From positions 1 through 38,946 of the forward strand of contig JAKIWD010000006.1 in NCBI GenBank assembly GCA_022750205.1: a DNA stretch of 38,946 nucleotides. Reading direction: 5' to 3'. Below the pieces are notes generated by a model. It did no database searches, was not told the origin of the DNA, and was given only the letters and a program-made list of their open reading frames with translations. Below, one piece after another: positions 14,741 through 32,857 of this stretch. The position numbers were made by a program, and so were the translations under genes. This stretch comes from Thermoplasmata archaeon (GTDB lineage Archaea; Thermoplasmatota; Thermoplasmata; Lutacidiplasmatales; UBA184). Position 1 is the stretch's first letter, and every line of letters begins with the position of its first letter.

Positions 14741-16192
14741 GTGTCCAAGGCCCCGACGCTCGTCGCCCTCGATGAGTTCCGCTACGAGATCGCGACCTCG
14801 GAATCCCCGGGTATGCGCGTCCCGGGGATCCTCTTCTCGAACGCCCAGCTCTTGGGGGCCGTGGAGTCCGACCCGTCGCTCCAGCAGCTGGCGAACGTCG
14901 CCACCCTCCCCGGGATCCAGCTCCATGCGCTGGCCATGCCCGATATCCACTTCGGATACGGATTCCCCGTCGGCGGGGTCGCGGCGTTCGACGTCAAGGA
15001 AGGGGTCGTATCCCCCGGCGGGATCGGGTACGACATCAACTGCGGCGTACGGTTGGTCCGCACCGGGCTCACGCGCGATGAGGTCCGGCCGCACCTCGCA
15101 AATCTGATCGACGCGCTGTACAAGGCCGTACCGAGCGGGGTCGGCTCCAAGGGCCCCGTCACGCTCTCGGAGGGCGAGCTCGATGAGGTCCTCGCCGACG
15201 GCGCAGCGTGGGCGGTGCGGCGCGGGTTCGGCCGCGAGTCCGATCTCGCGGTGCAGGTGGAGAACGGGCGCATGCCCGGCGCCGATCCCGCGGCGGTCAG
15301 CCCGGCCGCTCGCAAGCGCGGCCACCGCCAGCTGGGCACCCTCGGTTCCGGCAATCACTTCCTGGAGGTCCAGGCGGTCGACGAGATCTTCTTTCCCGAG
15401 TTCGCGGAGCGGCTCGGGCTCGTCACCGGCGAGGTCGTCGTCATGCTTCACACCGGCTCGCGGGGGCTGGGACACCAGGTCGCGACCGACTACATCGCGA
15501 CGATGGACCAGCGGCTCGCGCGCGAAGGCGTCACCCTCGTCGACCGCCAACTGTCGTGCGCGCCGGTGGCCAGCGACGACGGTCAGCGGTACCTCCGCGC
15601 GATGGCGGCCGGAGCCAACTATGCCTGGGCGAACCGCCAGCTGATCACCGACGGGGTGCGCCGGGCGTTCGGCCAGGTCTTCGGCCGATCCGAGTCGGAA
15701 CAGGGGCTCGACGTGGTCTACGACATCGCGCACAACATGGCCAAGCTCGAGCACCACGCCGTGGACGGCGGGCGCCGCGAGGTGCTCGTGCACCGCAAGG
15801 GCGCCACGCGGGCTTTCCCCGCCGGCCGCGACGAAGTGCCGGTGGCGTACCGGGAGTTTGGCCAGCCCGTGCTGATCCCAGGCGACATGGGTACCGCGAG
15901 CTACGTGCTCGCCGGATTGCCGACGAGCATGGAGCGGTCGTTCGGTTCGTCGTGCCACGGTGCCGGGCGACTGTTGTCGCGGCACGCCGCCGTCCGTCGC
16001 TTCCGCTACGAGGAGGTCACTCGCTCGCTCGGGGCGAAGGGGATCATCGTCCGCGCCGCGTCCCGGGAAGGGGTCACGGAAGAGGCCCCGGGGGCCTACA
16101 AGGACGTTGAGCAGGTCGTGCGCGTCGCCGAGGGGGCGGGGCTCACGCGACGGGTCGCGCGCCTCGTGCCGCTTGGCGTCGTCAAGGGCTAG
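14741..16192 (+). CDS. rtcB: RNA-splicing ligase RtcB (3'-phosphate/5'-OH RNA ligase)
   Basis: MPDIHFGYGFPVGGVAAFD, VSPGGIGYDINCGVRL, GTLGSGNHFLEVQ, HTGSRGLGHQ, HNMAKLEHH, HRKGATRAFP, GAGRLLSR. GTG start; TATA-like 'tctaatag' about 25 nt upstream. Confidence 0.96.
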   Translation: MSKAPTLVALDEFRYEIATSESPGMRVPGILFSNAQLLGAVESDPSLQQLANVATLPGIQLHALAMPDIHFGYGFPVGGVAAFDVKEGVVSPGGIGYDINCGVRLVRTGLTRDEVRPHLANLIDALYKAVPSGVGSKGPVTLSEGELDEVLADGAAWAVRRGFGRESDLAVQVENGRMPGADPAAVSPAARKRGHRQLGTLGSGNHFLEVQAVDEIFFPEFAERLGLVTGEVVVMLHTGSRGLGHQVATDYIATMDQRLAREGVTLVDRQLSCAPVASDDGQRYLRAMAAGANYAWANRQLITDGVRRAFGQVFGRSESEQGLDVVYDIAHNMAKLEHHAVDGGRREVLVHRKGATRAFPAGRDEVPVAYREFGQPVLIPGDMGTASYVLAGLPTSMERSFGSSCHGAGRLLSRHAAVRRFRYEEVTRSLGAKGIIVRAASREGVTEEAPGAYKDVEQVVRVAEGAGLTRRVARLVPLGVVKG

Positions 16193-19100
16193 ACTCTTCC
16201 CGTTCTCGGCGACCGGCGAGGGCGCCGAGTAGGACCGCGAGACCCACCCCGCCGCCTGCTAGCAGGATCCACGCAGGATCGAGCGCGTAGGGGATCACCA
16301 CCGACGCGACGGCGGCTTGGACGACAAGGGGAACTTCGACGTGGCCGGTGTAATTGTCCCCCACGACGGAAGCGTTCAGCTCGTAGCTTCCGGCCGCAGA
16401 CGGTGCGATGAGGTCGACGAAGATCCCTCCCGTCGGGCCCGGGCTGGCCGAACCCGCGGGGACGAGGGGCCCACCGGCGCGCGATTGGAACCCGAACGCG
16501 ACGTGGAATCCGGAGATCGAGCACGAGGGTGCGCTCAGGTTCGTGCACACCGGGTCCGCCGAGACCGTGGCCCCGACGAGGGCTCCCGGCGCGACGGACG
16601 ATTCGGCCAACGACGCGGTCAGCGTGACGGTGGTGCGGTTGTAGGCGGTGATGGTAAAGACCGACTCGTTGGTGTCCAACAGCGAATCGCTCACCGTGAC
16701 GACCGGCGCGTAGTGGCCCGGCACGACGAACTCGTGTTGCGTCGAGCTACCGGTCCCGACGCTCCCGTCGCCGAAGTTCCATGCGAACGTGTACGGCGCC
16801 CCGCCGCCCGCGACCCCGGACACGGAGAAGTTCACGAACAACGGTGCCAGGCCGGCCGTGACGTTCGGTCCGCCGGTCAGCGCCGGCGCGGAGCGAGCGG
16901 GGCCGGTGATCGTCAGCGCCTGGCTGCGGACGAGCCGGTCGCCCCACGGATCGGTCGCGGTGTCGCGGACCGTGTAGTTCCCGGCGTTCAGGTACGTGTG
17001 CGTGACCGACGTCCCGAGCGCGGTCCCCCCATCCCCGAACGACCAGGCGACCGAGAGGCCCGAGATCCCCGTGGCTTCGGCGGTCGCGTTGAGATGCAGG
17101 GGCGTCGCGCCGTTGACGGGCCTGACGCTATCGGTCAAGGTCGCCGCCGCGCTGCGACCGGCGACCGCGTCGGTGAGGAGGACCGCGGCCGACGTGGTGT
17201 TCCCGTTGCGGTCCGTGGCACTGACGCCCACGACGAGCGGGCATGCCCCGTTGCGGATGCACGGGAGCGCCCCGAACGTCTGGGTGACCGTGGCGCCGAA
17301 GGAGGAATCATCGTCGCCGAGGTCCCAGCGGTAGGTGTACGGTCCGCTGCCGCCGGTCACATTGGCGGTGAGCGTGACGAGCGTTCCGGCCGGGACCTCG
17401 ACCGCCGGCGTGACGGAGACGGTGAGGGCCGGCCCGGCGGAGTCGGACGGGGAGAGCGCGTCGACGACGAACGCCGCGCTCGTCACACCCCCGCCCGCGT
17501 CGCCGAGCTGACCGATCACGACGTAGAGCCCGGGCGAAGTGTACTCGTGGGCGACCGCCGCACCGGTGCCGGACGTTCCATCGCCGAACGTCCAGGTGGT
17601 CGCGTTGGGTTGAGGGGCGTCACCCCCGCTCGCCGCGGCCGTGAAGGTCACGGAGAACGGGGCCACTCCCGAGAGGGCCGAATGGTTGAACGTGCCGAGC
17701 AGCGCGGGATACAGCGTGACGTTCAGCTGGGCCGTCGTTTGCTCGTCGACGCTGTCATTGACGTAGGCCGTGAGGGTGTGGTTCCCCGCGACGCGGAAAA
17801 TGCCGCAGTCGCAGGCGTTCACGTACGGGTCGTCGGTGACCCATTGCACGGTGTAGGGGGGCGAGCCGCCGACCGGTGTGACGGACAGGTTCAGGTCTCC
17901 CGGTAGGTCGGCGGAGGTGCGCGGGGCCGAGACCTGCGCCGTCAAGTTGGGAGGATTGGCGCAGTTCGGCGGGCTCGCGCCGCCGACCCCGATCGCCAGG
18001 CGGCTGGAGGTCCCCCCGTCGACCGGGTCGGCGGAGTCCCGGACGATCACCGCGGCGCAGAATCGCCCGGCCGCACCGTAGACGTGCGAAACCGTTCCGG
18101 CGGTGGTGTTCGCCAGATACGAGCCATCGCCGAACACGTAGTAGTACTGCCACGGGGACGGTCCCCCGCGCACGGTAGCGGTCAGGTTGATCGCCTGACC
18201 GACGGAGGGGGTGGCGTTCGTGGCGGTGAGCGTGACGTTGAGGGCGTGGCCCCCGCCGACGACGATCGCCACCGGAGCCGAGGTCGAGGAGTTCCCGGCC
18301 GAATCGAAGACGGTCGCCGTCGCGACGTAGACGCCCGCGTCGGGGAACTGGTGCGTGACCGTTCCGGACCCGGCGAGGGACGCGTTGCCGTCGCCAAAGC
18401 TGACGTCGATGAGGGGATACGGGGGTCTCCCGCCGGCGGCGCTCAGGTCGAACGTAGCGACTAACGGCGCCTTCCCAAAACGCGGTCCGGCGCCCAGGGT
18501 CAGCGCGAGAGTTCCGGGCGACGCCCGCTCGGCGGCGAGCTGTGGGAACAGTCGACCGATGTTGGGGCTCCCGAGCCCCGTCACGGCGTCCCAGCCGACT
18601 CCGGCGCTGTAGCCATTCCAACCGGAGGTGACATCGTGGTACGTCCCGTTGGACGACGTGTTCCGGGCGATCCCATACAGACCGGGGTTGAGGAACCCGA
18701 GCCCGCCCCGTGCGAAGCTGTCCGCGTCGGTCGCCAGCCCCGCCCAGAGCACGGTCGACGCGCTCGTTCCGCCGACTCCCACGAAAAAGCCACTCTCGAC
18801 GATCTCTACGCTCGTGCCCCCGTCGATCGCGACATCCGGCACACCTCGTACGTCCGGGGATGCGGGCAACCCCTTGGCCAACTGCCACCACGGACGCGCG
18901 AACGGCGCAAAGCCCCCGCCGGATCCGCCCTGGTTGGCGCACCCCGGCGAGGAGGCCCCGGTGGAGTTGCCAGACCAGGCCACCTCGGAGGAATAGGCTC
19001 CCCCGGAGGTCTTGAGGTCGGTCCCGCCGACTCCGGTCACGAATGGGTCCGAGGCCGGGTAGCTCGTCGAATCCCCGTTCGTCCCCTCGGCCGCGCCGCA

Positions 19101-20441
19101 GTCGCCGCTCGCGGAAAAGACCCCGATGCCCTCGGCCGCCGCGTCGGCGAGAACCGGGTGGAGGATCGCGTAGGAACCGTCACTGGTGGCGTTGCACGCG
19201 GACGAACACGGCGTCGCGAACGAGTTGTAGACCCCGACGTCCGGCTCGCCCCAGCTCAGCGAGATGACGTTCGCGGCCTGGTGGGCGACGAGCCAATCCA
19301 CTGAGCCGTACAGTCCGGCGCCCGGGTCCGGGGCGAATGTCATCTCGATCGTAGCGCCGGGAGCCATGGCGCGGGTCCATTCCAGGTCCAGCGCCTCCTC
19401 GGTCGCCCACCCGGTGCTCGTCTTGTTCAGGTTGCGGGTGGTCGGGACCGGGTAGAGGTACTGGACCGACCCGAGGGAGATCCCGTAGTTCGAGGTGAAA
19501 TCCCCCAAGTCGCCTTCGAGGACGGTCTGGTTCTCGAACCCGTCGTAGGTGTCCACGACCGCGAGCCGGAAGCCACTACCGTTGTCCCCGGCTTTCAGGT
19601 CGGTCGTGGCGTTGTACGCCGATTGGATCTCGCACGGTGCATACGGCGCACTCGAGGGGCACGAGGCTGCGGGCGTCGGCACTGGCGGCGCACTCACGCC
19701 GGCCGGGCCCCGAACATCCGGCCGGGCGACCGAGTCGTTCCCTAGTCCGTAGGCGCCGAGCCACGGCACCGAGTCGGGGAGCGTGGCCGCGCTCGGGTGG
19801 TTGAAGAACACCCCTTGCGGCGCGTGATAGGCGTCGAACGTCGTGTGGAACGCTGCCCCGACATCCACGGGCGATCCTCCGACGAGCAGAAGCGTGTGGT
19901 CCGGACTGGCGGTTACCTTGAGTCCGAACTCTTCAAAGTAGGCGACCGCGGCCGCGTACTCGTCGCCCGAAGGGCCGAACTGGGCGGCGATCTGGGAGGG
20001 GCTGAGGAAGGTGTGGTACTGAGGAGCGTCCGGAGTGTACTCGAGCGTCGTCGTCGCCGCCAGTCCCGCCGGGTCCCGCGGGGCGAGCGCCACCGCGACG
20101 TCGAGGGCCGCGGTGCTCGAGAGGGGGCCGAGGTCGGTCACGCCGGGGCCCGGGACGTACGCCGGGGCCACCACTACCGGACCCGTCGGGAGTGAACGCG
20201 CCGCGGAGCCGGTCCTCACCGCCGGGGTCGCGAGCCCGGGGAAGAGCGGAAGGCACGAGACGACGACGAGGAGGGTGACCGCGATCACCCGGGGACCGAG
20301 AGATTGCGGACGGGCGCCGGGAGGCGTTCGACCCGTCCGGCGAACGGCGGCCCGCAACGGTACCTGTCGATGCGACGCCCGCCCTATTAAGGGGCGTCCA
20401 GTCGCCCGCAACACCCGGGAGCGTCCCGCGAGGCGCCTCAT
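16182..20441 (-). CDS. Large secreted S53-family (sedolisin) peptidase with about 7 PKD/Ig-like domains and C-terminal TM anchor
   Basis: Pro-kumamolisin-like prodomain (YHTFLSPSQIAAQFGPS), ATEEALDLEWTRAMAP (E...D), SASGDCGA, VGVGGTSASTVLWAG (Ser), WDAVTGLGSPNIGRLF, then repeated 'WxFGDGxxGTG...H.Y..PG.Y.V' PKD motifs. Start uncertain: ATG 20441 or TTG 20357. Confidence 0.88.
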   Translation of the reverse strand: MRRLAGRSRVLRATGRPLIGRASHRQVPLRAAVRRTGRTPPGARPQSLGPRVIAVTLLVVVSCLPLFPGLATPAVRTGSAARSLPTGPVVVAPAYVPGPGVTDLGPLSSTAALDVAVALAPRDPAGLAATTTLEYTPDAPQYHTFLSPSQIAAQFGPSGDEYAAAVAYFEEFGLKVTASPDHTLLLVGGSPVDVGAAFHTTFDAYHAPQGVFFNHPSAATLPDSVPWLGAYGLGNDSVARPDVRGPAGVSAPPVPTPAASCPSSAPYAPCEIQSAYNATTDLKAGDNGSGFRLAVVDTYDGFENQTVLEGDLGDFTSNYGISLGSVQYLYPVPTTRNLNKTSTGWATEEALDLEWTRAMAPGATIEMTFAPDPGAGLYGSVDWLVAHQAANVISLSWGEPDVGVYNSFATPCSSACNATSDGSYAILHPVLADAAAEGIGVFSASGDCGAAEGTNGDSTSYPASDPFVTGVGGTDLKTSGGAYSSEVAWSGNSTGASSPGCANQGGSGGGFAPFARPWWQLAKGLPASPDVRGVPDVAIDGGTSVEIVESGFFVGVGGTSASTVLWAGLATDADSFARGGLGFLNPGLYGIARNTSSNGTYHDVTSGWNGYSAGVGWDAVTGLGSPNIGRLFPQLAAERASPGTLALTLGAGPRFGKAPLVATFDLSAAGGRPPYPLIDVSFGDGNASLAGSGTVTHQFPDAGVYVATATVFDSAGNSSTSAPVAIVVGGGHALNVTLTATNATPSVGQAINLTATVRGGPSPWQYYYVFGDGSYLANTTAGTVSHVYGAAGRFCAAVIVRDSADPVDGGTSSRLAIGVGGASPPNCANPPNLTAQVSAPRTSADLPGDLNLSVTPVGGSPPYTVQWVTDDPYVNACDCGIFRVAGNHTLTAYVNDSVDEQTTAQLNVTLYPALLGTFNHSALSGVAPFSVTFTAAASGGDAPQPNATTWTFGDGTSGTGAAVAHEYTSPGLYVVIGQLGDAGGGVTSAAFVVDALSPSDSAGPALTVSVTPAVEVPAGTLVTLTANVTGGSGPYTYRWDLGDDDSSFGATVTQTFGALPCIRNGACPLVVGVSATDRNGNTTSAAVLLTDAVAGRSAAATLTDSVRPVNGATPLHLNATAEATGISGLSVAWSFGDGGTALGTSVTHTYLNAGNYTVRDTATDPWGDRLVRSQALTITGPARSAPALTGGPNVTAGLAPLFVNFSVSGVAGGGAPYTFAWNFGDGSVGTGSSTQHEFVVPGHYAPVVTVSDSLLDTNESVFTITAYNRTTVTLTASLAESSVAPGALVGATVSADPVCTNLSAPSCSISGFHVAFGFQSRAGGPLVPAGSASPGPTGGIFVDLIAPSAAGSYELNASVVGDNYTGHVEVPLVVQAAVASVVIPYALDPAWILLAGGGVGLAVLLGALAGRREREESSP

Positions 20442-20510
20442 CTCCGGCGAACGCGCGCGGAGGGCAGAGGCTTTTACGGGAACCGGGCTCCCACCGACAT
20501 CACCGCGGCG

Positions 20511-21866
20511 TTGACGCCTCTCCAAGGCTGGCTGCTCTTCGTCGCCCTCCTTGTCCTCTACGGATTGGCGGTCTACGGACTGTACCGGGCCGGTCGCATC
20601 GGGCCGGATCGGTCGCTCTCGCTCCTCGGCCCGGCGCTCATGATGAAGACCCGGCGCGGGCGGGGACTCCTCGAACGCTTGGGCCGATTCCGGCGATTCT
20701 GGTCGGTGCTCGGGAGCATCGGCGTGGGGCTCGCGGGGATCGCGATGGTCCTCATTGTCGGACTCCTCGCCCTGGATGCGTACGCCGTCACGCAGATCTC
20801 GCCGAGCGCGGCCCCCTCTCCCCAGGAGGCGCTCGGGATACCGGGCATCAATCCGATCATCCCGATCGGATACGGATTGGTCGCCCTGGCCATCGGGATC
20901 GTGCTCCACGAGTTGGCGCACGGCGTGATGGCGCGCTCCCAGGGGATCGGGGTCAAGACCCTCGGCATCCTCTGGTTCATCGTCCCGATCGGGGCGTTCG
21001 TCGAGCAGGACGACGAGCAGATGAACGCAGCCCCGCGACGGCAACGTCGGCGGGTGGCCGCCGCGGGCGTTCTCGCCAATTTCATCCTGACCGTCGTGTT
21101 CTTCCTAGTGCTGGCCGCGACGCTTTCCGGGTCGATCGCCCCCAACGCGAACGGGGTGGGCGTCGCCTACGTGGTCACCGGTAGCCCAGCGGCCAACGCG
21201 AGCCTGGTGCCGGGCGACATCATCACCGCGATCAACGCCACCCCCACGCCGACGAACGCGGCGCTGCTGGACGCGCTCGCCGCGGACAAACCGGGGGCGG
21301 TCGTCGCCGTGACGTTCTACAATGCGAGTTCGGGGGCTCTCGAAACGAGATCGATCACGCTCGCCGCGCGCGGCGAGTACGTGACCGATGACCCCACCCA
21401 CGCCGACGAGGGGTTCCTCGGGGTTTCCCCGTTATTCCTCACGCCGGCGGGCCTGAAGTCGGACCTCGTGTTTCCGCCCACGAGTCCCTCCGGTACGATC
21501 ATCGGCGGCATCGATTGGCTCGTCCTCCCCCTCGCCGGCATCGAGCCGATCGCGGGGCCCACGGCGGGTTTCTTCCACGTCACCGGACCGTTGGCGGGGC
21601 TCGGGGCGGGCAACTTCTGGATCCTCGCCAACCTGCTCTACTGGCTGGCGTGGATGAACCTCCTGCTCGGTCTCTCCAACACCCTCCCGCTCATCCCGCT
21701 CGACGGCGGGCTGCTGTTCCGCGACTTCATCGCCGGCATCGCGGCCCGGGTGCGCCCACGATGGGACGCAGCGCGCTTGGACGGGTTCAGCGGATCCGCT
21801 ACGATCGCCTCGTCGGTCATCGTCGTCTTCCTCCTGGTATGGCAGTTCGTCGGTCCGCACCTGTAG
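20511..21866 (+). CDS. M50-family (site-2 protease-like) membrane metalloprotease with PDZ-like insert
   Basis: IGIVLHELAHGVMARSQGI (HExxH), PDZ-like segment VAYVVTGSPAANASLVPGDIITAINATPTPTNAALLDAL, NTLPLIPLDGG. TTG start. Confidence 0.88.
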   Translation: MTPLQGWLLFVALLVLYGLAVYGLYRAGRIGPDRSLSLLGPALMMKTRRGRGLLERLGRFRRFWSVLGSIGVGLAGIAMVLIVGLLALDAYAVTQISPSAAPSPQEALGIPGINPIIPIGYGLVALAIGIVLHELAHGVMARSQGIGVKTLGILWFIVPIGAFVEQDDEQMNAAPRRQRRRVAAAGVLANFILTVVFFLVLAATLSGSIAPNANGVGVAYVVTGSPAANASLVPGDIITAINATPTPTNAALLDALAADKPGAVVAVTFYNASSGALETRSITLAARGEYVTDDPTHADEGFLGVSPLFLTPAGLKSDLVFPPTSPSGTIIGGIDWLVLPLAGIEPIAGPTAGFFHVTGPLAGLGAGNFWILANLLYWLAWMNLLLGLSNTLPLIPLDGGLLFRDFIAGIAARVRPRWDAARLDGFSGSATIASSVIVVFLLVWQFVGPHL

Positions 21867-22990
21867 CGGAAGCGGAGCTCCTCGCGGAGTACCCCTTCCT
21901 CCCGGGCGCCGAGTCGTTGCTGGCGGGGCTCACGCCCTCCCTGCGCGACCTCCTGACCGACCCGACCTATGAACGGGCCCGCCTGCTCGGTCGGGCGCGG
22001 GTACGGGCCGCCGCCGACGATCCCACCGGGGGGACCGTGGTCGAGGAGCTCGCCCGGGCCGTTCCTGCGGAACGGTTCTTGTCGTTCTACTACGCCCGAC
22101 TGCTCCTTTCCGCCGCTCCCTCCCCCGCCGCGCTGCGCCGATGGGCCGTGGCGGAGGCCAAACAGAGCTACGGCCGCTGGCGGACCGAGCCGCTGCCCAC
22201 GCTCATCGACATCTCGGACCGGCTCCACTATCCCCTCACCGAGGCGGAGGGTGCCTCGGTGGCGCTGACCGTTCCGGACTACCTGCGATTGGCCACCGCG
22301 ATCCGGGAGGCCGATTTCCGCCTCGCCCGACAGGACGTCGCCGACGGGAAGGTCTCGATCGCCCGGGATCGCGCCGCCCGCCTCCTCCAGGAGGCCGTCC
22401 GCCTGGCACTCACGGCGCCCGTCCCGTTGACGGACGACGTCGTCGGCCTGTTGCGCGAACGGGAGGCGGAGTTCCTCGCGGACCTCGCGCAGCGAGTGCC
22501 GCTCCCGACGCGGCCGGCGCCCGGCGGACCGGCTTCGTACCGACCCGAGTTGTTCCCCCCGTGCATCCGCAAGATGGTCCGGATGCTCCAGGCCGGGGAG
22601 AACCTCTCCCACGCCGGTCGGTTCGCCCTCGCGGCGTTCCTCCATCGCACCGGCGCGACGTTCGAGACGATCGTCGACGCCTATCGAGGGGCTCCCGACT
22701 TCGACGAGTCGATCACGCGCTATCAGGTCGAACACATCACCCAGCGCGGAGGCGGAGAGGGGTACACGCCACCGGAGTGCGACACGCTCCGCACCCACGG
22801 ACTCTGCTTCCGGGACGGGGATCCCACCGCGCCGAACGCGCTCGACCGGTCCCGCGACGACCGATGCTTCGAGCCGACGCTCCGCCACCCGTTGACGTAC
22901 TACCGGCGGCGGGGGGGCAAGGTCAGGGCGGTGCCGGAGGAGTCGGTGTCAGCTGCCCATGCACCGTCCAGGCCCGGGCCGCCGCCGTGA
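21839..22990 (+). CDS. priL: DNA primase large subunit PriL
   Basis: FFPPCIRKM-type C-terminal 4Fe-4S region: LFPPCIRKMVRMLQAGENLSHAGRFALAAFLHRTG...CDTLRTHGLCFRDGD...RCFEPTLRHPLTYY. Confidence 0.9.
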   Translation: MAVRRSAPVAEAELLAEYPFLPGAESLLAGLTPSLRDLLTDPTYERARLLGRARVRAAADDPTGGTVVEELARAVPAERFLSFYYARLLLSAAPSPAALRRWAVAEAKQSYGRWRTEPLPTLIDISDRLHYPLTEAEGASVALTVPDYLRLATAIREADFRLARQDVADGKVSIARDRAARLLQEAVRLALTAPVPLTDDVVGLLREREAEFLADLAQRVPLPTRPAPGGPASYRPELFPPCIRKMVRMLQAGENLSHAGRFALAAFLHRTGATFETIVDAYRGAPDFDESITRYQVEHITQRGGGEGYTPPECDTLRTHGLCFRDGDPTAPNALDRSRDDRCFEPTLRHPLTYYRRRGGKVRAVPEESVSAAHAPSRPGPPP

Positions 22991-23597
22991 ACTGGCCGGC
23001 GACGACGAAGTACAGCATCGCGACATCGATCACGGTGAACGTCCAACCCAGTGCGTGGAACCGCAACCACGGGGCGGTCGGGGCCCACGGCCACGGGAGC
23101 GAGAGGTCGAATTCCAGGAACGTGGCGAGCGTCAGGATCAGCAGACGGTCGGCCCGCGACAGGAGCCCCCGGTACATCCGGCCGGCGCCGACGGCCTGTG
23201 CCTGGGTCCCCATGTAGCTCACCAGCAACAGACTGACGAGCGCGAGCAGCGCGAGGAGCGGGTCGGCGAATCCCGAAACAGCGATCCCGAGGAGGATCGC
23301 GATGTCGGCGTACCGGTCGAAGACGTGGTCGAGGAAGTCTCCGGCCGCGGAGACCCGCTGGGTTCGCCGGGCGACCTCGCCGTCGATGACATCGAACATC
23401 CCGCTGGCGAACACCAGGAGCGCGACGCCCAGGAACGGGTACGGTCCGAGCCATCGGGTCGACGCCGCCAACCCGCCGGCCGCGACGGCCAATACCAGTG
23501 CGGCGCCGGAGATCTGGGACGGAGACCAAGTCAGGAAGGGTCGCGCGAGGCGCTCGATCTGGGGCGCGAAGCGGGACCGATACCCTTCGGCCACCAT
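22923..23597 (-). CDS. CDP-alcohol phosphatidyltransferase (archaetidylinositol phosphate synthase-like)
   Basis: DVIDGEVARRTQRVSAAGDFLDHVFDRYAD matches D(x)2DG(x)2AR(x)8G(x)3D(x)3D; multiple TM segments. Confidence 0.9.
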   Translation of the reverse strand: MVAEGYRSRFAPQIERLARPFLTWSPSQISGAALVLAVAAGGLAASTRWLGPYPFLGVALLVFASGMFDVIDGEVARRTQRVSAAGDFLDHVFDRYADIAILLGIAVSGFADPLLALLALVSLLLVSYMGTQAQAVGAGRMYRGLLSRADRLLILTLATFLEFDLSLPWPWAPTAPWLRFHALGWTFTVIDVAMLYFVVAGQFTAAARAWTVHGQLTPTPPAPP

Positions 23598-23606
23598 CCC
23601 GCGCGG

Positions 23607-24176
23607 TTACCGGTTCGGGCGCAAAAGATAGTCGGTCACGCGTGCATCGGCGAGCCAATCGATCCGGCCGAACCGGGGTGGGGGCCGTTGGTCGAGCAGC
23701 GTGCGCACTTCGCGGGCCACGGCGTCGAGGGAACGGTCGGTCGTATCGACCTCCCAAACCCGGCGTCGCAGGGAGAGCGCCTCGAGCAGGATCACGTCGG
23801 TCGCCTCTGCGGCGACGTTCTCGCGCCGGTCGGCCCGGCTTCCCCGGAGGCCCTTGTCGAGGCGATCCGCGAGCTCGAGCGGGTGGCACCGAAGGAGCAC
23901 CACGTCTCGGCACGGGAGGAAGTGCGCGAGATGTCCCACGTACACGTCGGCCCGGAGCGCCGACGGTTTCCGGGACTCCGCCGCGCGCAATCGGGCCAGG
24001 TCGACGTCCACGACCGGCCGCCCCGGGCGCGCACTCGACGGGCCCCCCGCCAGTGCGGCAACCTCCACCACCCGCCGCGTCGGTCCGAGCCTCGCCGCGA
24101 CGCTGGATTTGCCCGTCCCGGGAGTTCCGGAAAGGGCCGTCGAACGGACGCGGTGCCGGGCCGTGAACTCCCCCAT
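23607..24176 (-). CDS. AK6/Fap7-like adenylate kinase family protein
   Basis: P-loop ALSGTPGTGKSSVA; VLLRCHPLELADRLDKGL; ENVAAEATDVILLEAL. Confidence 0.85.
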   Translation of the reverse strand: MGEFTARHRVRSTALSGTPGTGKSSVAARLGPTRRVVEVAALAGGPSSARPGRPVVDVDLARLRAAESRKPSALRADVYVGHLAHFLPCRDVVLLRCHPLELADRLDKGLRGSRADRRENVAAEATDVILLEALSLRRRVWEVDTTDRSLDAVAREVRTLLDQRPPPRFGRIDWLADARVTDYLLRPNR

Positions 24177-24229
24177 TTTTGAGTCGCGCCCGGGACCCCT
24201 TCCCACCGGCGGTGCAAGAAGGGGGCGAA

Positions 24230-27300: not shown

Positions 27301-29201
27301 ATGACTACGGCGGGAACTACTCCGAGCTCAACACGGTCGCCTTCGTGCTCAAGCAGATCCGCCAGACGGTCAACCCGACCACAGAGAACTACTGGGCCCC
27401 CAACTCAGTCTACCAGTCGGCGTACTACGACATGCTCTACACCTGGCAAGGCGAGGAGCTCCCGGTCCACACCAGCGACTACCAGGGCAATGCGCTGGGG
27501 GGTCTGAAGGTCTGGTTCGGCAACTACGACGTCGGCGGGGAGAACAAGTTCTACAAGTACATCCCCTCGGGCGGCTCCGTCGGCGTGACGAACACTTCCG
27601 GCACGAGCGCGATCACGGGGGGGGACGGCAACGCGACGGTCTACATCCCGCAGAACCAGTCGTTGGACTTCTTCGTCTACACCAACGGCACACCGGCGTT
27701 CGGATTCGGCTTCGTGTCCGCCTCGATCCCGGGCGTCCAGAACCGCACGTTCAGCTACACCGAGCCGTGCGCGCCGACGCTCGTGAACCCGAAGACGACG
27801 ATCACCTGCCAGTACAATGACTCGTTCCAGCGCAACTACACCTCGGTCCCCGCCGTGGTCTTCCCGGACCCGGTCAAGGCGTGGACGGACACGACCTCCA
27901 AGGTCCAGCGCGACTTCTTCGGTGAAGGGGCCAGCGTCGCGGCCGCGGTGTCGATCCACCTGCCGACGGGTGACCCGTTCATCACCGGTATCGGCTACAA
28001 CTGGCCGTCCGGACTGGAGCACGTCGTCAGCGCGAACGCCTATGTCGATGGCGTCTACGCGGGCACGATGAGCCCGAACACGCCGCCGGACTGGCAGACC
28101 TACAACTCGACGGTCAACCTGACGGGAACCTACGGCGCGGGCAACCACACGCTCGAGGTCATCGTCGACGACAGCCTGGGCCACGTGTTCACGTCCCGCC
28201 ACACGTTCATCGTGGGTGGGGTGACCGTGCCGACGCTCCGGCAGTACACGGTGCTCCCGTACAACCTGACCTGGACCCTGGACATTCCCTACGTGGAGAT
28301 GAACAACCACACGTTCAACCAGACCCTCGACATCCGCTACGTCACCAACGGCTGCGGCGGCTCCCTGAGCCCCTGCCCGACCGTCGTGAACTACACGGAG
28401 CGGATCCGGGACGGCGTGGTCAACTACTACCAGCTGCTCAACCTGACACTGCTGAACCTGAACCACTTCTACGGCGGTTCCTCGACACTCCCCGCGGGTC
28501 AGTACCAGTTGATCATCTGGCTGAACGCCAACCATAGCGGCAGCATCGCGACGGAGCTGAGCACCTATCTCGTGTTCAATCCGGTCGTCGCGCACCTCAA
28601 CGGTCCGACGGCGAACGAGACCGTGCCGATCGGCAACGTGACGCTCTCGTACTCGTACTCCGGTCAGTACATCCAGGCGGCCAACCTGAGCGTCTACTCG
28701 GCGGCCGACCTGCAGGTGCCGGTCTTCAACGTGATCGCCTACGTGCCCGGCGACGGGCTGCGGGGTGGCGCGGCGAACTGGATCGCGGTCGACCAGGGGC
28801 CCTACCGGGTCACCTTGGCGCTGGGGACGCCGTACGGCTGGGACAACATCACCGAGAACATCACCGTGCTCGAGACGACAGGGCTCGTATGGCTGAACCA
28901 ATCGTCCGCGGCTCACCCACTGGGCGGGATGGGCGCGGCCGAAACGGGAACGATCCTGGCGCTCGTCGCGGGGATCCTCGGGCTCCTGATCGGTCTATGG
29001 ATCGCCCCGTCGTTCCGCCGCATGCCCACGGGCCCCAGCGGCAAGGGTAGCACCAAGCCGTGGGAGGAGGGACCCGCCGGGGCCACGAGCGCCGCGGGTC
29101 GTCAGGCCGGTCGGATCACGTGCCCCGTCTGCAAGGACGAGTTCTCGACGGAGTTTGCGCTCCACGAGCACCAGAAGATCGTCCACGGCATCGAAGAGTA
29201 G
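24303..29201 (+). CDS. Large secreted S53-like peptidase with Ig-like modules, C-terminal TM helix and cytoplasmic C2H2 zinc-finger tail
   Basis: Signal peptide RRVLFALAVTCVMVLSSALIAAPGNARA; SNEMALDIDYSATMALGAKI; YGGTSFACPTTAGMFGLIDDYL; WDFPTGWGSINVANF; TM GTILALVAGILGLLIGLWIAPSF; tail CPVCKDEFSTEFALHEHQKIVH. Confidence 0.88.
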   Translation: MNQAAPASRPHLPNRRVLFALAVTCVMVLSSALIAAPGNARAETPTATAFMAGSSMHSGVLTGAELQHSTYATSPGSGMTAITNGTILGNVAGSSPVAFTIGFALQNESELTQILAAQASEGSPMFQHWLTLQQENQMFGPNPVEVQNTINYFTSLGFRVATEGPISISFIGPAASTNAAFKTTLVNVKENGATAITNAAPLSLPGQIANGISTVNGLNQLNVAHVTSFVDPALTGDMAASLAMTPSDLSTSLSTPTTYLNTSQAYNFTNAAFLWFRYFSMHHKAFETWQTITPGSLDKIYGAYPLLNAGINGNSTGSPITVALVMAGGINPSDIQEYGQLVFNNPKAIFDRLVPVPVDGSFTDNGTLTYTDGDSNEMALDIDYSATMALGAKIMPVYGPCLCTNVLDDDYATIDAMLKVPNVVSNSWGGEEDTFGNLYGPNWQNTLTMHHYFMLLDARGVTILASSADGGGFDTGTGMLSGAFPATDPYVLSVDGTRAAETDGSGVAFPYTDSLGLANLTIDTLINWPVHVEQATQLQYQSFWYQPIANTTLYNAPPEASGGFGTSYWFNQSWYQNGIGVPNLGRALGSGVGAEADFNETIYFDGGIEYFYGGTSFACPTTAGMFGLIDDYLLDHGHSAYLGDGNVPVFTVGNAWLNGNLSLVPYYDVVNNGTSYWGNYGVEKGYSWPPGQKFPMSPQGYTTYGNTTKGWDFPTGWGSINVANFATDLAALESLPGTFQIINTTTNSFNVGAWDYMVLNQSYTVHLNASASFGASNPTVTVEFFAQNGQKSTMQFPLTAVFTPTLGFNFVLDTSISPFNGPGLIIFESGNDSTHTAGFAYTWISWPAPPGTLTVTVVDPQQSSEVGGYAQFNPWPFGYDAPVSVSPSCCTAYPNSFTVQVTFNGHAVYNAQVDATVPSASVLAWQGSPIQGVTQGDGRPSHELTSAILSQTFTNTSGYALVYTWNVIAPTSYFVNATYGSAIGGTTYTMTPGPNVGTTDDYGGNYSELNTVAFVLKQIRQTVNPTTENYWAPNSVYQSAYYDMLYTWQGEELPVHTSDYQGNALGGLKVWFGNYDVGGENKFYKYIPSGGSVGVTNTSGTSAITGGDGNATVYIPQNQSLDFFVYTNGTPAFGFGFVSASIPGVQNRTFSYTEPCAPTLVNPKTTITCQYNDSFQRNYTSVPAVVFPDPVKAWTDTTSKVQRDFFGEGASVAAAVSIHLPTGDPFITGIGYNWPSGLEHVVSANAYVDGVYAGTMSPNTPPDWQTYNSTVNLTGTYGAGNHTLEVIVDDSLGHVFTSRHTFIVGGVTVPTLRQYTVLPYNLTWTLDIPYVEMNNHTFNQTLDIRYVTNGCGGSLSPCPTVVNYTERIRDGVVNYYQLLNLTLLNLNHFYGGSSTLPAGQYQLIIWLNANHSGSIATELSTYLVFNPVVAHLNGPTANETVPIGNVTLSYSYSGQYIQAANLSVYSAADLQVPVFNVIAYVPGDGLRGGAANWIAVDQGPYRVTLALGTPYGWDNITENITVLETTGLVWLNQSSAAHPLGGMGAAETGTILALVAGILGLLIGLWIAPSFRRMPTGPSGKGSTKPWEEGPAGATSAAGRQAGRITCPVCKDEFSTEFALHEHQKIVHGIEE

Positions 29202-29308
29202 TGAGCTCCCCGCTCCACTTCCCAACCCTTTCTTTCTTCGTTCTTCGTCGCGCCGGTTGACGGCCGCACCGGGCCGCCACGGGCCAGAGTTAAACGGCTG
29301 TTCTACGA

Positions 29309-29318
29309 GACATTTAAG
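29309..29318 (+). promoter_or_regulatory. TATA-like element 'catttaagc'
   Basis: Centred about 27 nt upstream of ATG 29342, supporting a leaderless start there and not at the tracked ATG 29321. Confidence 0.5.
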
Positions 29319-29341
29319 CCATGTATGTTGTCAGGGCGCCT

Positions 29342-30970
29342 ATGCTCCGCGCGGAGACCAAGGCGCTCGGGACCTGGACGATCGCGGCCCTCCTCATCAT
29401 GGCCATCGTCGCATTGGCCCTCCCTGGGGGCCTTGTGGCGTTCGGGCACGCGAACCAGTCGCATCCCCTGGCCGGGTCGGCCTCGCATGTCGCCGCTCCG
29501 ACACCCCTCGCGAGCGTTGTCGCCCCGGCAGTGCACGTCGCGGCAGGCAACAACTCGAGTGGGAACATCAGCGCCTCCGTCGTCATTACCACGACGCTGA
29601 CCGGCCCGCAGGACATCCCGGTCGCGCTCAACTGGACGATCAACGTCACCAACACCACGCTGGACGCGAAGAACGTCTCCCAGACCCTGCTCGTCATGAA
29701 CGGGGCGAACGTCATCACCAACCTTTCGCAACCGGTTGCGGCGGGGACGACGAACTACACGACCAACATCGATTACGGATTGCTCACCTCGGCGAACTAC
29801 AATGGCGGCACCCTGCCGACCACCCCGTACACGTTCGTGGTCTGGCTGACCGCGCTCAATGCGACGAACGGGTCCGTTTCCTGGGTCAACGCGAGCTCCA
29901 ACGCGTTGACGGCCACGCTGCTGATCTCCAACGTGGAGGTGCTCTACACGAGCAGCCTGCCGTTGTACAGCTCGCTGCCGTTCACCATCGACTTTACCAC
30001 GACGTTCACCGGCAACACCCCGACCGTGATCAATCGCCTCAACGTGACGATCAACCTCGAGCTGAGGTTCATCGAATCGGGCTGCGGCAGCTTGTTCGGC
30101 CTGGGAGCGCCGTGCGAGACCGTCGCGAACGAGACCCTCGACACCGCCGCGTCCGGCCTGTTCAACGCCACCGGCGTCTACAGCTACACGGTCAGCGGCG
30201 GGGACTTCGCCGCGCAGAACTTCGCCAACGGGCAGTTCCCCTACGGCGAGTACCAGGTGATCGTCTGGACGACCCTCGCCAACGTCAACGACCCGGCTCA
30301 GGACGTCCGCACCAGCGCGGCCGCGGAGTACACGTACCCCGTGTTCGACCAGAACGCCGCCACGTTCCTGTCGCCCTCCGCGACGAGCCCGGCGACCGCG
30401 GGCAACGTGACCATCTCCGTCTCCTACATCGCCGACTACCTCGCGGCGGCGAACGTGACGGTCTACGAGGGCGCGACGGGCACCACCGTCGTCTTCTCGG
30501 CGGGCGTCGTGCAGGCCGGCGAGTACGCCCACGCCTCGAGCGCGACCTGGTCGGGCGCGGCCGCGGGCGAGTACCGGTTGGTCCTGGCGATCGCCACGGC
30601 GGCGGGCGCCGCGGCGGGAACGGCTACGTTCAGTGAGTTGTTCAACGTCACCTCGGCCGCGTCGGCGGGCGGTGGGGTCGTCTACTACAACGAGACGATC
30701 TACACCAACACCACGACGACCAAGGCGTCGGGCAGCAGCTTCGGCGGCCTGAGCGCGGGCGCAGGAGCGGCCACGCTGCTGGTCGTCGGGTTGATCATCG
30801 GCGCGATCGTCGCGTTCATGCTCGGGCGGATGATGTGGACCGGCCAGAAGCCCGGTTCACCCCAGCCCTGGTCGGCCAAGGGCGCGAACGAGTGCAGCAT
30901 CTGCCACCAGACGTTCCCGACGGAAGCCGAGCTCAAGGAACACTCCAAGCAGGCGCACGGCAAGGAGTAG
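29342..30970 (+). CDS. Secreted/membrane Ig-like protein with TM helix and cytoplasmic C2H2 zinc-finger tail, related to the C-terminal part of the upstream S53 protein
   Basis: N-terminal hydrophobic segment TWTIAALLIMAIVALALPGGLVAF; TM ATLLVVGLIIGAIVAFMLGRMMW; tail CSICHQTFPTEAELKEHSKQAH. Confidence 0.85.
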   Translation: MLRAETKALGTWTIAALLIMAIVALALPGGLVAFGHANQSHPLAGSASHVAAPTPLASVVAPAVHVAAGNNSSGNISASVVITTTLTGPQDIPVALNWTINVTNTTLDAKNVSQTLLVMNGANVITNLSQPVAAGTTNYTTNIDYGLLTSANYNGGTLPTTPYTFVVWLTALNATNGSVSWVNASSNALTATLLISNVEVLYTSSLPLYSSLPFTIDFTTTFTGNTPTVINRLNVTINLELRFIESGCGSLFGLGAPCETVANETLDTAASGLFNATGVYSYTVSGGDFAAQNFANGQFPYGEYQVIVWTTLANVNDPAQDVRTSAAAEYTYPVFDQNAATFLSPSATSPATAGNVTISVSYIADYLAAANVTVYEGATGTTVVFSAGVVQAGEYAHASSATWSGAAAGEYRLVLAIATAAGAAAGTATFSELFNVTSAASAGGGVVYYNETIYTNTTTTKASGSSFGGLSAGAGAATLLVVGLIIGAIVAFMLGRMMWTGQKPGSPQPWSAKGANECSICHQTFPTEAELKEHSKQAHGKE

Positions 30971-31056: not shown

Positions 31057-32286
31057 CTACTGGAAACGGAGCCCGTGGAACTCGCGTCGCCAAGCGAGGA
31101 CCTCGGCCCCGACCCGTTCGTGACGGGGCCCGGCACGGATGAGGAGCTCCGCCAGTCTCGGCATGTCCGACGGGATCAGTCCCAAGCGGGCGACCTCCGC
31201 GGTCCCCAACCGGCCGACGAGATCGGTGATCAACCGTTGTCGCTCCCACCGGCGAGCGAGGGCTCCGGGCGCGATCGCGTGACGCTCCTTGAGGGCCTTC
31301 CGATCCAGGTGGATCTGGTGGGACTCGGTGAAGCCATCGTCGGCGGCGAGGATGGATAGCCCGGCTCCGTGGAGGGCGCGCCCGAGCGCCTGGGCGTTCT
31401 CGACGGTCGTCGTCGCATACTCCTTGCCCACCCGCTCGAGCTCCAGCAGCGTCTGGCCGAGGGCGGCGATGCGGTGCCAGTGGGCGTTGTCGAAGATCCG
31501 CCAGACCAGCGCCGGGTCGATCTGCTGGAAAAGGTCCTCCCGATCGGTGACGAGCAATCCTCCTTGGGGCCCCGGGAACGATTTGTGGGTGCTCCCGAAC
31601 AGCACATCGGCCCCCTCGCGCAGCGGGTCCTGGAATCTCCCGCCCGCGATCAGACCCAGCACGTGGGAGCCGTCGTAGAACACGAGCGCGTCCTGGGCGT
31701 GGGCGGCCTCGGCGATCTCTCGCAGCGGGTACGGGAAGAGAAAGAAGCTCTGACCCAGGACGACCGCCGCCGGTCGTTCCCGCTGGATCTCCTCGATCGC
31801 CCGATCGGCGTCGAGCCGCGCCGAGGCGCTCGCGAGGGGGAGAGGTCGGACCTGATATCCGAGCAGGGCGGGGATGAAGCCCGAGGCATAGCCGTCGTAG
31901 CCGCCGGCCGATGGCTCGATCGCCAGAAGCTTGGAGCCGCGGGGGAGCAGGGGGGCCAATGCGGAGAGCGCCGCGATGTGGCCGGAGAGCGGTCGGGTCG
32001 TCGCGAACCTTCCGTGGAACAGTCGGGCGGCCGCGGCGTTGGCCAAGCGCTCGATCTCGTCGGTGTAGCGGGTGCCCGCGTAGCTGTTGTCGATCCGCTC
32101 CCCTTCGAATTCCGCAGAGAGAGGCAGCGTGTAGCGGCCGGCAAGGTCGCTGCCGAGATAGCGACGGGCCCGGGGCGAGATGGCGTTCTCGCTCGCGAGG
32201 AGGTTGAAGACGCCGTGGCCGCGCCAGCGCTCGTGCGCCGCGACCAGGCGCGCGAGACGCGCTTCCTCAGTCGGGGCCGCGGCCAT
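31057..32286 (-). CDS. glyA: Serine hydroxymethyltransferase family protein (PLP-dependent)
   Basis: FNLLASENAISPRARRYLGSDLAGRY, GSTHKSFPGPQGGLLVTD (PLP-Lys), DGFTESHQIHLD. Alternative start at 32310. Confidence 0.85.
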   Translation of the reverse strand: MAAAPTEEARLARLVAAHERWRGHGVFNLLASENAISPRARRYLGSDLAGRYTLPLSAEFEGERIDNSYAGTRYTDEIERLANAAAARLFHGRFATTRPLSGHIAALSALAPLLPRGSKLLAIEPSAGGYDGYASGFIPALLGYQVRPLPLASASARLDADRAIEEIQRERPAAVVLGQSFFLFPYPLREIAEAAHAQDALVFYDGSHVLGLIAGGRFQDPLREGADVLFGSTHKSFPGPQGGLLVTDREDLFQQIDPALVWRIFDNAHWHRIAALGQTLLELERVGKEYATTTVENAQALGRALHGAGLSILAADDGFTESHQIHLDRKALKERHAIAPGALARRWERQRLITDLVGRLGTAEVARLGLIPSDMPRLAELLIRAGPRHERVGAEVLAWRREFHGLRFQ

Positions 32287-32857
32287 CGGTGCCGCCGGCG
32301 GCCTCGCCAAGTCGCGCGGCCTTTCGGTGCTCGCGGTGCCCGCAGCGGGGACAGACCAGCTCGCGGCCGCCCATCGTCAGGAGACCGTGACAGGACTGGC
32401 ATCGGGCAGAGACCACCCCGAGGTTGGACGGGCCGGTCGTGAGCTTGATCGTCGGCTGGCTCTGGATCACCTTGGCGATCACGACGTCGCCGGGCGAGAA
32501 CTCGCTCGAGAGGCTCTCGGTGTACTCGTCCTTGGCCTTGGAGATATGGATCGTCCCTTCCGGCGCACCGGGCACGGCGCGCCGGCCGTTCGAGAGCGTG
32601 AGCACCGTGACCACGACCATCGCGCTCTTGACCTCGTCCACGCGCGCGTAGACGTCGTCGCCGTCCTCGATGTGCGGGATGGCGTGGAGCGCCTCGACGC
32701 GGATCGCGCGGTCGTGGCTGTCGACGCTCGTGCGACCCAGGAGGGCGGCGTAGATCTTGCCGTTGTCCTCGTAGGTGCCACGGCCGGGGACGAACTCTTC
32801 CGCGGTGCCGAGCAGGTCACCGGGCAGGACCAACTTGGGATTCTCTGGATCGCTCAT
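32267..32857 (-). CDS. csl4: Exosome complex RNA-binding protein Csl4
   Basis: VLPGDLLGTAEEFVPGRGTYEDNGKIYAALLG; S1-like GDVVIAKVIQSQPTIKL; zinc ribbon CQSCHGLLTMGGRELVCPRCGHRE. Confidence 0.92.
   Translation of the reverse strand: MSDPENPKLVLPGDLLGTAEEFVPGRGTYEDNGKIYAALLGRTSVDSHDRAIRVEALHAIPHIEDGDDVYARVDEVKSAMVVVTVLTLSNGRRAVPGAPEGTIHISKAKDEYTESLSSEFSPGDVVIAKVIQSQPTIKLTTGPSNLGVVSARCQSCHGLLTMGGRELVCPRCGHREHRKAARLGEAAGGTDGRGPD

Follow-up and report, generated by a model that had tools for sequence, protein, structure and literature searches.

Two neighbouring genes in the 38,946-nucleotide stretch analysed here (the window) encode large exported proteins with a common ending. P1 (24303..29201, +; 1632 aa) is predicted to be a protease of the S53, or kumamolisin/sedolisin, type with an Ig-like C-terminal region; P2 (29321..30970, +; 549 aa) is a predicted Ig-like multidomain surface protein. 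Both finish in a transmembrane (TM) helix, a PW-containing linker and a C-x2-C-x12-H-x4-H finger, as the first-pass annotation had claimed: the P1 frame ends CPVCKDEFSTEFALHEHQKIVHGIEE and the P2 frame CSICHQTFPTEAELKEHSKQAHGKE. The P1 helix, placed by AlphaFold and hydropathy (2.32 over 21 residues), covers residues 1545-1567 or thereabouts (28935..29003, +). The linker behind it (29004..29120, +), predicted to be cytoplasmic and disordered (pLDDT < 50), contains KPWEEG, of which KPW is kept by most P1 orthologues. The finger (29121..29186, +) was found by pattern match and is followed by a class-conserved GIEE end. P2 has its TM helix at residues 479-506 by AlphaFold model and hydropathy (30755..30838, +), a putatively cytoplasmic linker with SPQPW that is disordered in the model (30839..30892, +) and in which Gln and Trp are invariant among 15 orthologues, and a finger (30893..30958, +) identified by pattern match, the zf-C2H2_4 profile and AlphaFold.

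What lies outside the membrane? P1 matches the pro-kumamolisin activation domain (Pro-kuma_activ, PF09286; 7.5e-18, 65.6 bits against a cut-off of 23.5). It also aligns with kumamolisin (7e-13) at all of the catalytic Glu, Asp, Asp and Ser positions, the Ser segment weakly. The aligning segments are NEMALDID, ASSADGGG and GGTS, whose residues we take to be the catalytic Glu/Asp pair, the oxyanion Asp and the Ser in GTS. By its pro-domain and catalytic residues P1 is assigned to the S53 peptidases, bearing out the earlier description of it as S53-like, and it would be expected to be proteolytic at low pH. A Foldseek search with the P2 model returned generic Ig/FN3/macroglobulin-like beta domains at low overall TM-scores; as modelled, P2 consists of several Ig-like domains. 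The window encodes a further S53 protease (16182-21044, -), which ends in TM-GRREREESSP; this terminus is short and charged and has no finger.

We call the endings C2H2 fingers because of the motif, the profile matches and the structural model, and not on the strength of a curated Pfam cut-off. Scored as single sequences, both fall under the gathering threshold (P1 14.6 against 27 bits; P2 17.6 against 25). All 26 aligned tails match zf-C2H2_4, and the tail profile retrieves solved C2H2 fingers (CTCF and Zif268). Across the 2.24-Mb assembly the strict motif has four occurrences: one each in P1 and P2 and two in a soluble 82-aa protein with two fingers; a control pattern has none. Structure prediction with AlphaFold, proposed as a check in the first-pass annotation, places a folded finger after the TM helix and disordered linker in P2 (finger helix 535-546; block pLDDT 72-83), and the P1 C-terminal fragment has the same layout (TM helix 279-301 of the fragment; finger blocks pLDDT 60-76). 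The tails are predicted to bind zinc. Under the criterion C-x2-C-x12-H-x3-5-H, every one of the 63 finger tails has the Cys and His residues, 59 have the core Phe and 58 the Leu, figures to be read knowing that the collecting search demanded the Cys/His pattern and so partly selected the tails on it, fingerless tails being counted separately. The C-x2-C-x12-H-x4-H form lies within a few residues of the C-terminus in all 63. A lack of conserved Cys and His in other genomes had been named as grounds for abandoning the idea; they are kept in many.

On which side of the membrane does the finger sit? The ectodomains belonging to the 63 finger tails hold 1592 N-glycosylation sequons against 700 expected by shuffling, and the tails 6 against 9.3. 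Lys and Arg average 0.35 in the 20 residues before the TM helix and 2.5 in the 20 after it. Because of these two asymmetries, taken with the N-terminal hydrophobic signals, the topology statistics support a cytoplasmic position for the fingers of P1 and P2, as had been proposed for them. The inverted arrangement, with the finger outside the cell, is highly improbable: nothing speaks for it beyond the indirect nature of the topology evidence, and it is contradicted by the sequon and positive-inside statistics and by the N-terminal signal-like sequences.

The two matching tails are both real, but they are not independent occurrences. Residues 1333-1631 of P1 are homologous to residues 237-549 of P2 (27.7% identity, E=8e-21). 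When 76 C-terminal regions were placed in a tree with the finger left out, the P1 type came out as a single clade (24 rows, 100/100), separate from the 42 P2-type sequences. Homology and tree together point to an ancient duplication, and the similar tails are to be counted once. Judged from sequence, P1 and P2 are old paralogues whose C-terminal 330 or so residues are held in common and have one origin.

The 63 finger tails come from a single Thermoplasmata family, Ca. Lutacidiplasmatales, of which SubAcS15-67, SubAcS15-31, SubAcS13-24 and UBA184 are given as members (PMC9287336). The genomes compared are mostly MAGs, and ORF lengths at related loci are stop-to-stop. Of the family's 61 genomes, 42 yield the tail, whole or partial, to a two-row profile, and all seven genera are represented. 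With a 26-row profile (the order; 293 genomes of the phylum), full tails are confined to this family with one exception, an S16 protease described below. The host family consists of acid-soil archaea, and the large surface proteins of the locus are often proteases.

Searching for recurrence of the tail, as first suggested, did find it at C-termini in many genomes; it is not dispersed, however, and belongs to one syntenic slot, with one or two carrier genes per genome. In the window the conserved left side of this slot is formed by genes for a CDP-alcohol phosphatidyltransferase (22923..23597, -; PF01066) and, at the boundary, an adenylate-kinase-like AAA_18 kinase (23607..24206, -; PF13238). 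Its conserved right boundary is a convergent gene of the serine hydroxymethyltransferase (SHMT) type (31057..32310, -; PF00464, 1.5e-27). The last tail gene is convergent with the adjacent SHMT gene at 48 of the 50 loci having that landmark, the gap being mostly 60-230 bp. Six genomes without a tail have a cleanly empty slot in which SHMT adjoins the AAA_18 kinase, some 20-75 bp apart, so the surface-protein unit is a clean presence/absence insertion. The ectodomain in the slot varies: P1 combines S53 with Ig-like domains, P2 has Ig-like domains alone, and three loci have thermopsin (E 4e-44 to 6e-58); TM helix, linker and finger persist.

The finger itself can be lost. Its state changes six times on the tree, and one change reflects a contig end and was set aside, leaving about five. 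These are most simply explained as finger losses in which the TM helix and linker were retained; in most of these losses a Ser/Gly-rich stretch stands in its place. They show that in some lineages the finger is dispensable. In four genomes P2 has no finger and the core Phe of the P1 finger is replaced by Ala or Met. The pairing is suggestive of a linked function, but in each paralogue tree the four group together as a single clade and so represent one event; at two further loci P1 alone keeps a normal finger. We did not retain P1-P2 finger pairing as a pattern.

A gain can be seen as well. In another family, at two loci, an exported S16 protease (Lon_C, 6e-14) has a TM helix and a C-terminal C2H2 finger that passes the Pfam cut-off (27.5 against 25 bits), and its orthologues in sister families have charged tails after the TM helix and no finger. 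This finger was probably added separately, independently of the Lutacidiplasmatales tails. It is basic (net charge +3 and +4) and, given that charge, may differ in function from the fingers of the slot.

How strongly is the finger maintained, and what does its surface offer? Pooled Nei-Gojobori dN/dS from 14 close pairs, partly non-independent, is 0.12 for the finger, 0.13 for the TM helix, 0.23 for the ectodomain and 0.25 for the linker. Purifying selection is stronger on the finger than on the ectodomain or the linker. At the positions that contact DNA in other fingers (-1/2/3/6), P2-type tails have mostly Thr/Ser, Glu/Asp, Glu and Glu/Ala (40 of 41 also have Lys at H+2), and P1-type tails have Thr, Phe/Tyr, Ala and Gln. 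Net charge is negative on average and in most tails. Fingers that read DNA have basic or base-contacting residues at -1, 2, 3 and 6 and usually stand in tandem, a description that the tails do not fit. The acidic charge and the contact residues favour contact with protein and disfavour the reading of bases, and surfaces conserved within each class are as expected for specific partners.

We therefore favour, as somewhat the likelier account, a reading of the finger as a cytosolic protein-docking module carried by a surface protease or adhesin that is anchored in the membrane. A docking element was among the functions first suggested, and the class-specific finger surfaces, their negative mean charge and the strong conservation of the finger point the same way. 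Each protein would have a signal peptide, a sequon-rich and probably glycosylated ectodomain, one TM helix and a short cytosolic tail with a single finger. The helix of the finger would bind a cytosolic or membrane-associated partner at the inner face of the membrane, and this binding would tether, cluster or report on the surface protein. The role and the existence of the partner are both inferred, and two further observations speak for them: the finger is kept while the ectodomain in the slot switches among Ig-like, S53 and thermopsin, and an unrelated S16 surface protease of another family acquired a C-terminal finger of its own. Docking would not be essential, since the finger has been lost several times with the TM helix and linker kept. 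The soluble two-finger protein was considered as the partner and rejected on co-occurrence: some genomes whose slot is empty encode it, and several with tails lack it.

The main rival, unlikely as we judge it, is a passive anchor, in which the finger, compact with its bound zinc, would act as a knob that keeps a single-TM protein from slipping out of the membrane and would have no specific partner. That a Ser/Gly-rich tail, unrelated but about as long, can stand in for the finger fits such a role, as does the short spacing of 21-50 residues between TM helix and Cys. A knob, however, has no need of surface residues that are conserved class by class, such as ELKEHxK or HQKIVHGIEE, and other surface proteins in the window anchor by a short charged end alone.

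Two other readings we consider quite improbable. In the first, the protein would be a transmembrane signalling receptor-protease: the outer protease or Ig region would act as a sensor or be cleaved, and the finger inside, either docked or set free by cleavage within the membrane, would carry the signal to a cytosolic effector. This would be an archaeal counterpart of membrane-tethered zinc-finger signalling. In the second, which takes in the nucleic-acid binding offered by the first-pass annotation, the finger would bind DNA or RNA while tethered to the membrane, or intramembrane proteolysis would release it as a regulator. The C2H2 fold suits this, and DNA-binding fingers are among the profile matches. 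AFV1p06 of an archaeal virus, a soluble protein with a single C2H2-type fold and a positive helix face, can bind DNA (PMC3541406). The slot tails resemble it in being single archaeal C2H2-type folds but are membrane-anchored and acidic; their -1/2/3/6 residues (Thr and three acidic, or Thr, aromatic, Ala and Gln), mostly negative charge, single finger and absent basic flank speak against nucleic-acid binding.

More doubtful still is a ubiquitin-like binder, in which a UBZ-type finger would dock SAMP, a ubiquitin-like modifier of archaea, and so control turnover of the surface protein. The finger helix is acidic, zf_UBZ weakly matches 6 of 26 tails (best 0.024) and the model of the OTU1 C-terminal finger matches 3 of 26 (best 0.0011). 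The profile score of the P2 tail is nevertheless under the Pfam cut-off (14.3 against 25.6 bits), and general C2H2 models match more tails with better scores. The recurrent C-terminal sorting tag also put forward at first, taken here as a sorting or processing signal that resembles PGF-CTERM and has its own sortase, accords with the finger's extreme C-terminal position but is largely refuted by synteny (48/50 loci) and the few carriers in each genome, by the TM helix being followed by a long tail (48-61 residues) and not a terminal basic cluster, by the fingerless S53 protease in the window, and by the lack of any NCBIfam CTERM hit to either protein at E 0.1; we rate it as scarcely credible.

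Kumamolisin is a secreted, soluble acid protease. P1 shares the pro-domain and the catalytic Glu, Asp, Asp and Ser of the kumamolisin/sedolisin group (MEROPS S53; PDB 1t1g) but differs in its added Ig-like domains, TM helix and cytosolic zinc finger. S53, thermopsin and A4 are reported as the most prevalent extracellular peptidases in Ca. Lutacidiplasmatales (PMC9287336), so that the thermopsin (A5) and S53 surface peptidases described there come from the same organisms and protease classes as ours; the words "zinc finger" are absent from the main text of that paper. The S16 (Lon_C) protease is like P1 in its signal peptide, ectodomain protease, TM helix and C-terminal finger, and unlike it in its unrelated ectodomain and linker, basic finger and apparently independent origin. 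In the titles and abstracts of the open-access literature searched, no description turned up of archaeal C2H2 fingers combined with thermopsin, with sedolisin or with membrane anchors; one paper among the matches (PMC9258230) contains the terms thermopsin, zinc finger and transmembrane together.

Archaeal surface proteases are usually seen as outward-facing enzymes, and zinc fingers as readers of DNA. An inner finger under strong selection, on proteins whose outer protease families are swapped, points to a cytosolic partner of the archaeal surface. The layout appears to have had a second origin elsewhere in the phylum, in another family. Natural losses and empty slots offer ready-made comparisons in the search for that partner.

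The window encodes a second S53-type protein, which carries PKD repeats (16182-21044, minus strand). Its C-terminal end consists of a TM helix followed by GRREREESSP, and a C2H2 finger is absent from this end. Another kind of tail is seen in the S16 surface proteases of family f24 (L165, L166 and L168), whose C-termini share the pattern I-x-D-(Y/F)-Y-K-K-(Q/N)-K after the TM helix; this pattern occupies the place of the zinc finger found in family f36. In other members of the phylum, at L103 (G183) and L104 (G106), C2H2 fingers lie N-terminal to a TM helix. The finger precedes the helix in L103 and L104, whereas it follows the helix in the S53 protease P1 and the Ig-like surface protein P2.

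A soluble protein with two C2H2 fingers is encoded at L001 (G000, contig C7, 19352-19576, minus strand). Proteins of this type have the conserved N-terminus (M/V)P(Y/F)VEYDE and are present in 69 of the 106 genomes of the order (search at E<=1e-6).

By eye, T/pyrimidine-rich runs lie 3' of the stop codons of P1 (29221-29252) and P2 (31003-31020). These are possible archaeal terminators, and the two genes may have separate transcripts. In the empty slots L169-L174, the AAA_18 kinase gene directly adjoins the SHMT gene. Several kb in size, the surface-protein unit at this site has been either cleanly inserted or cleanly lost.
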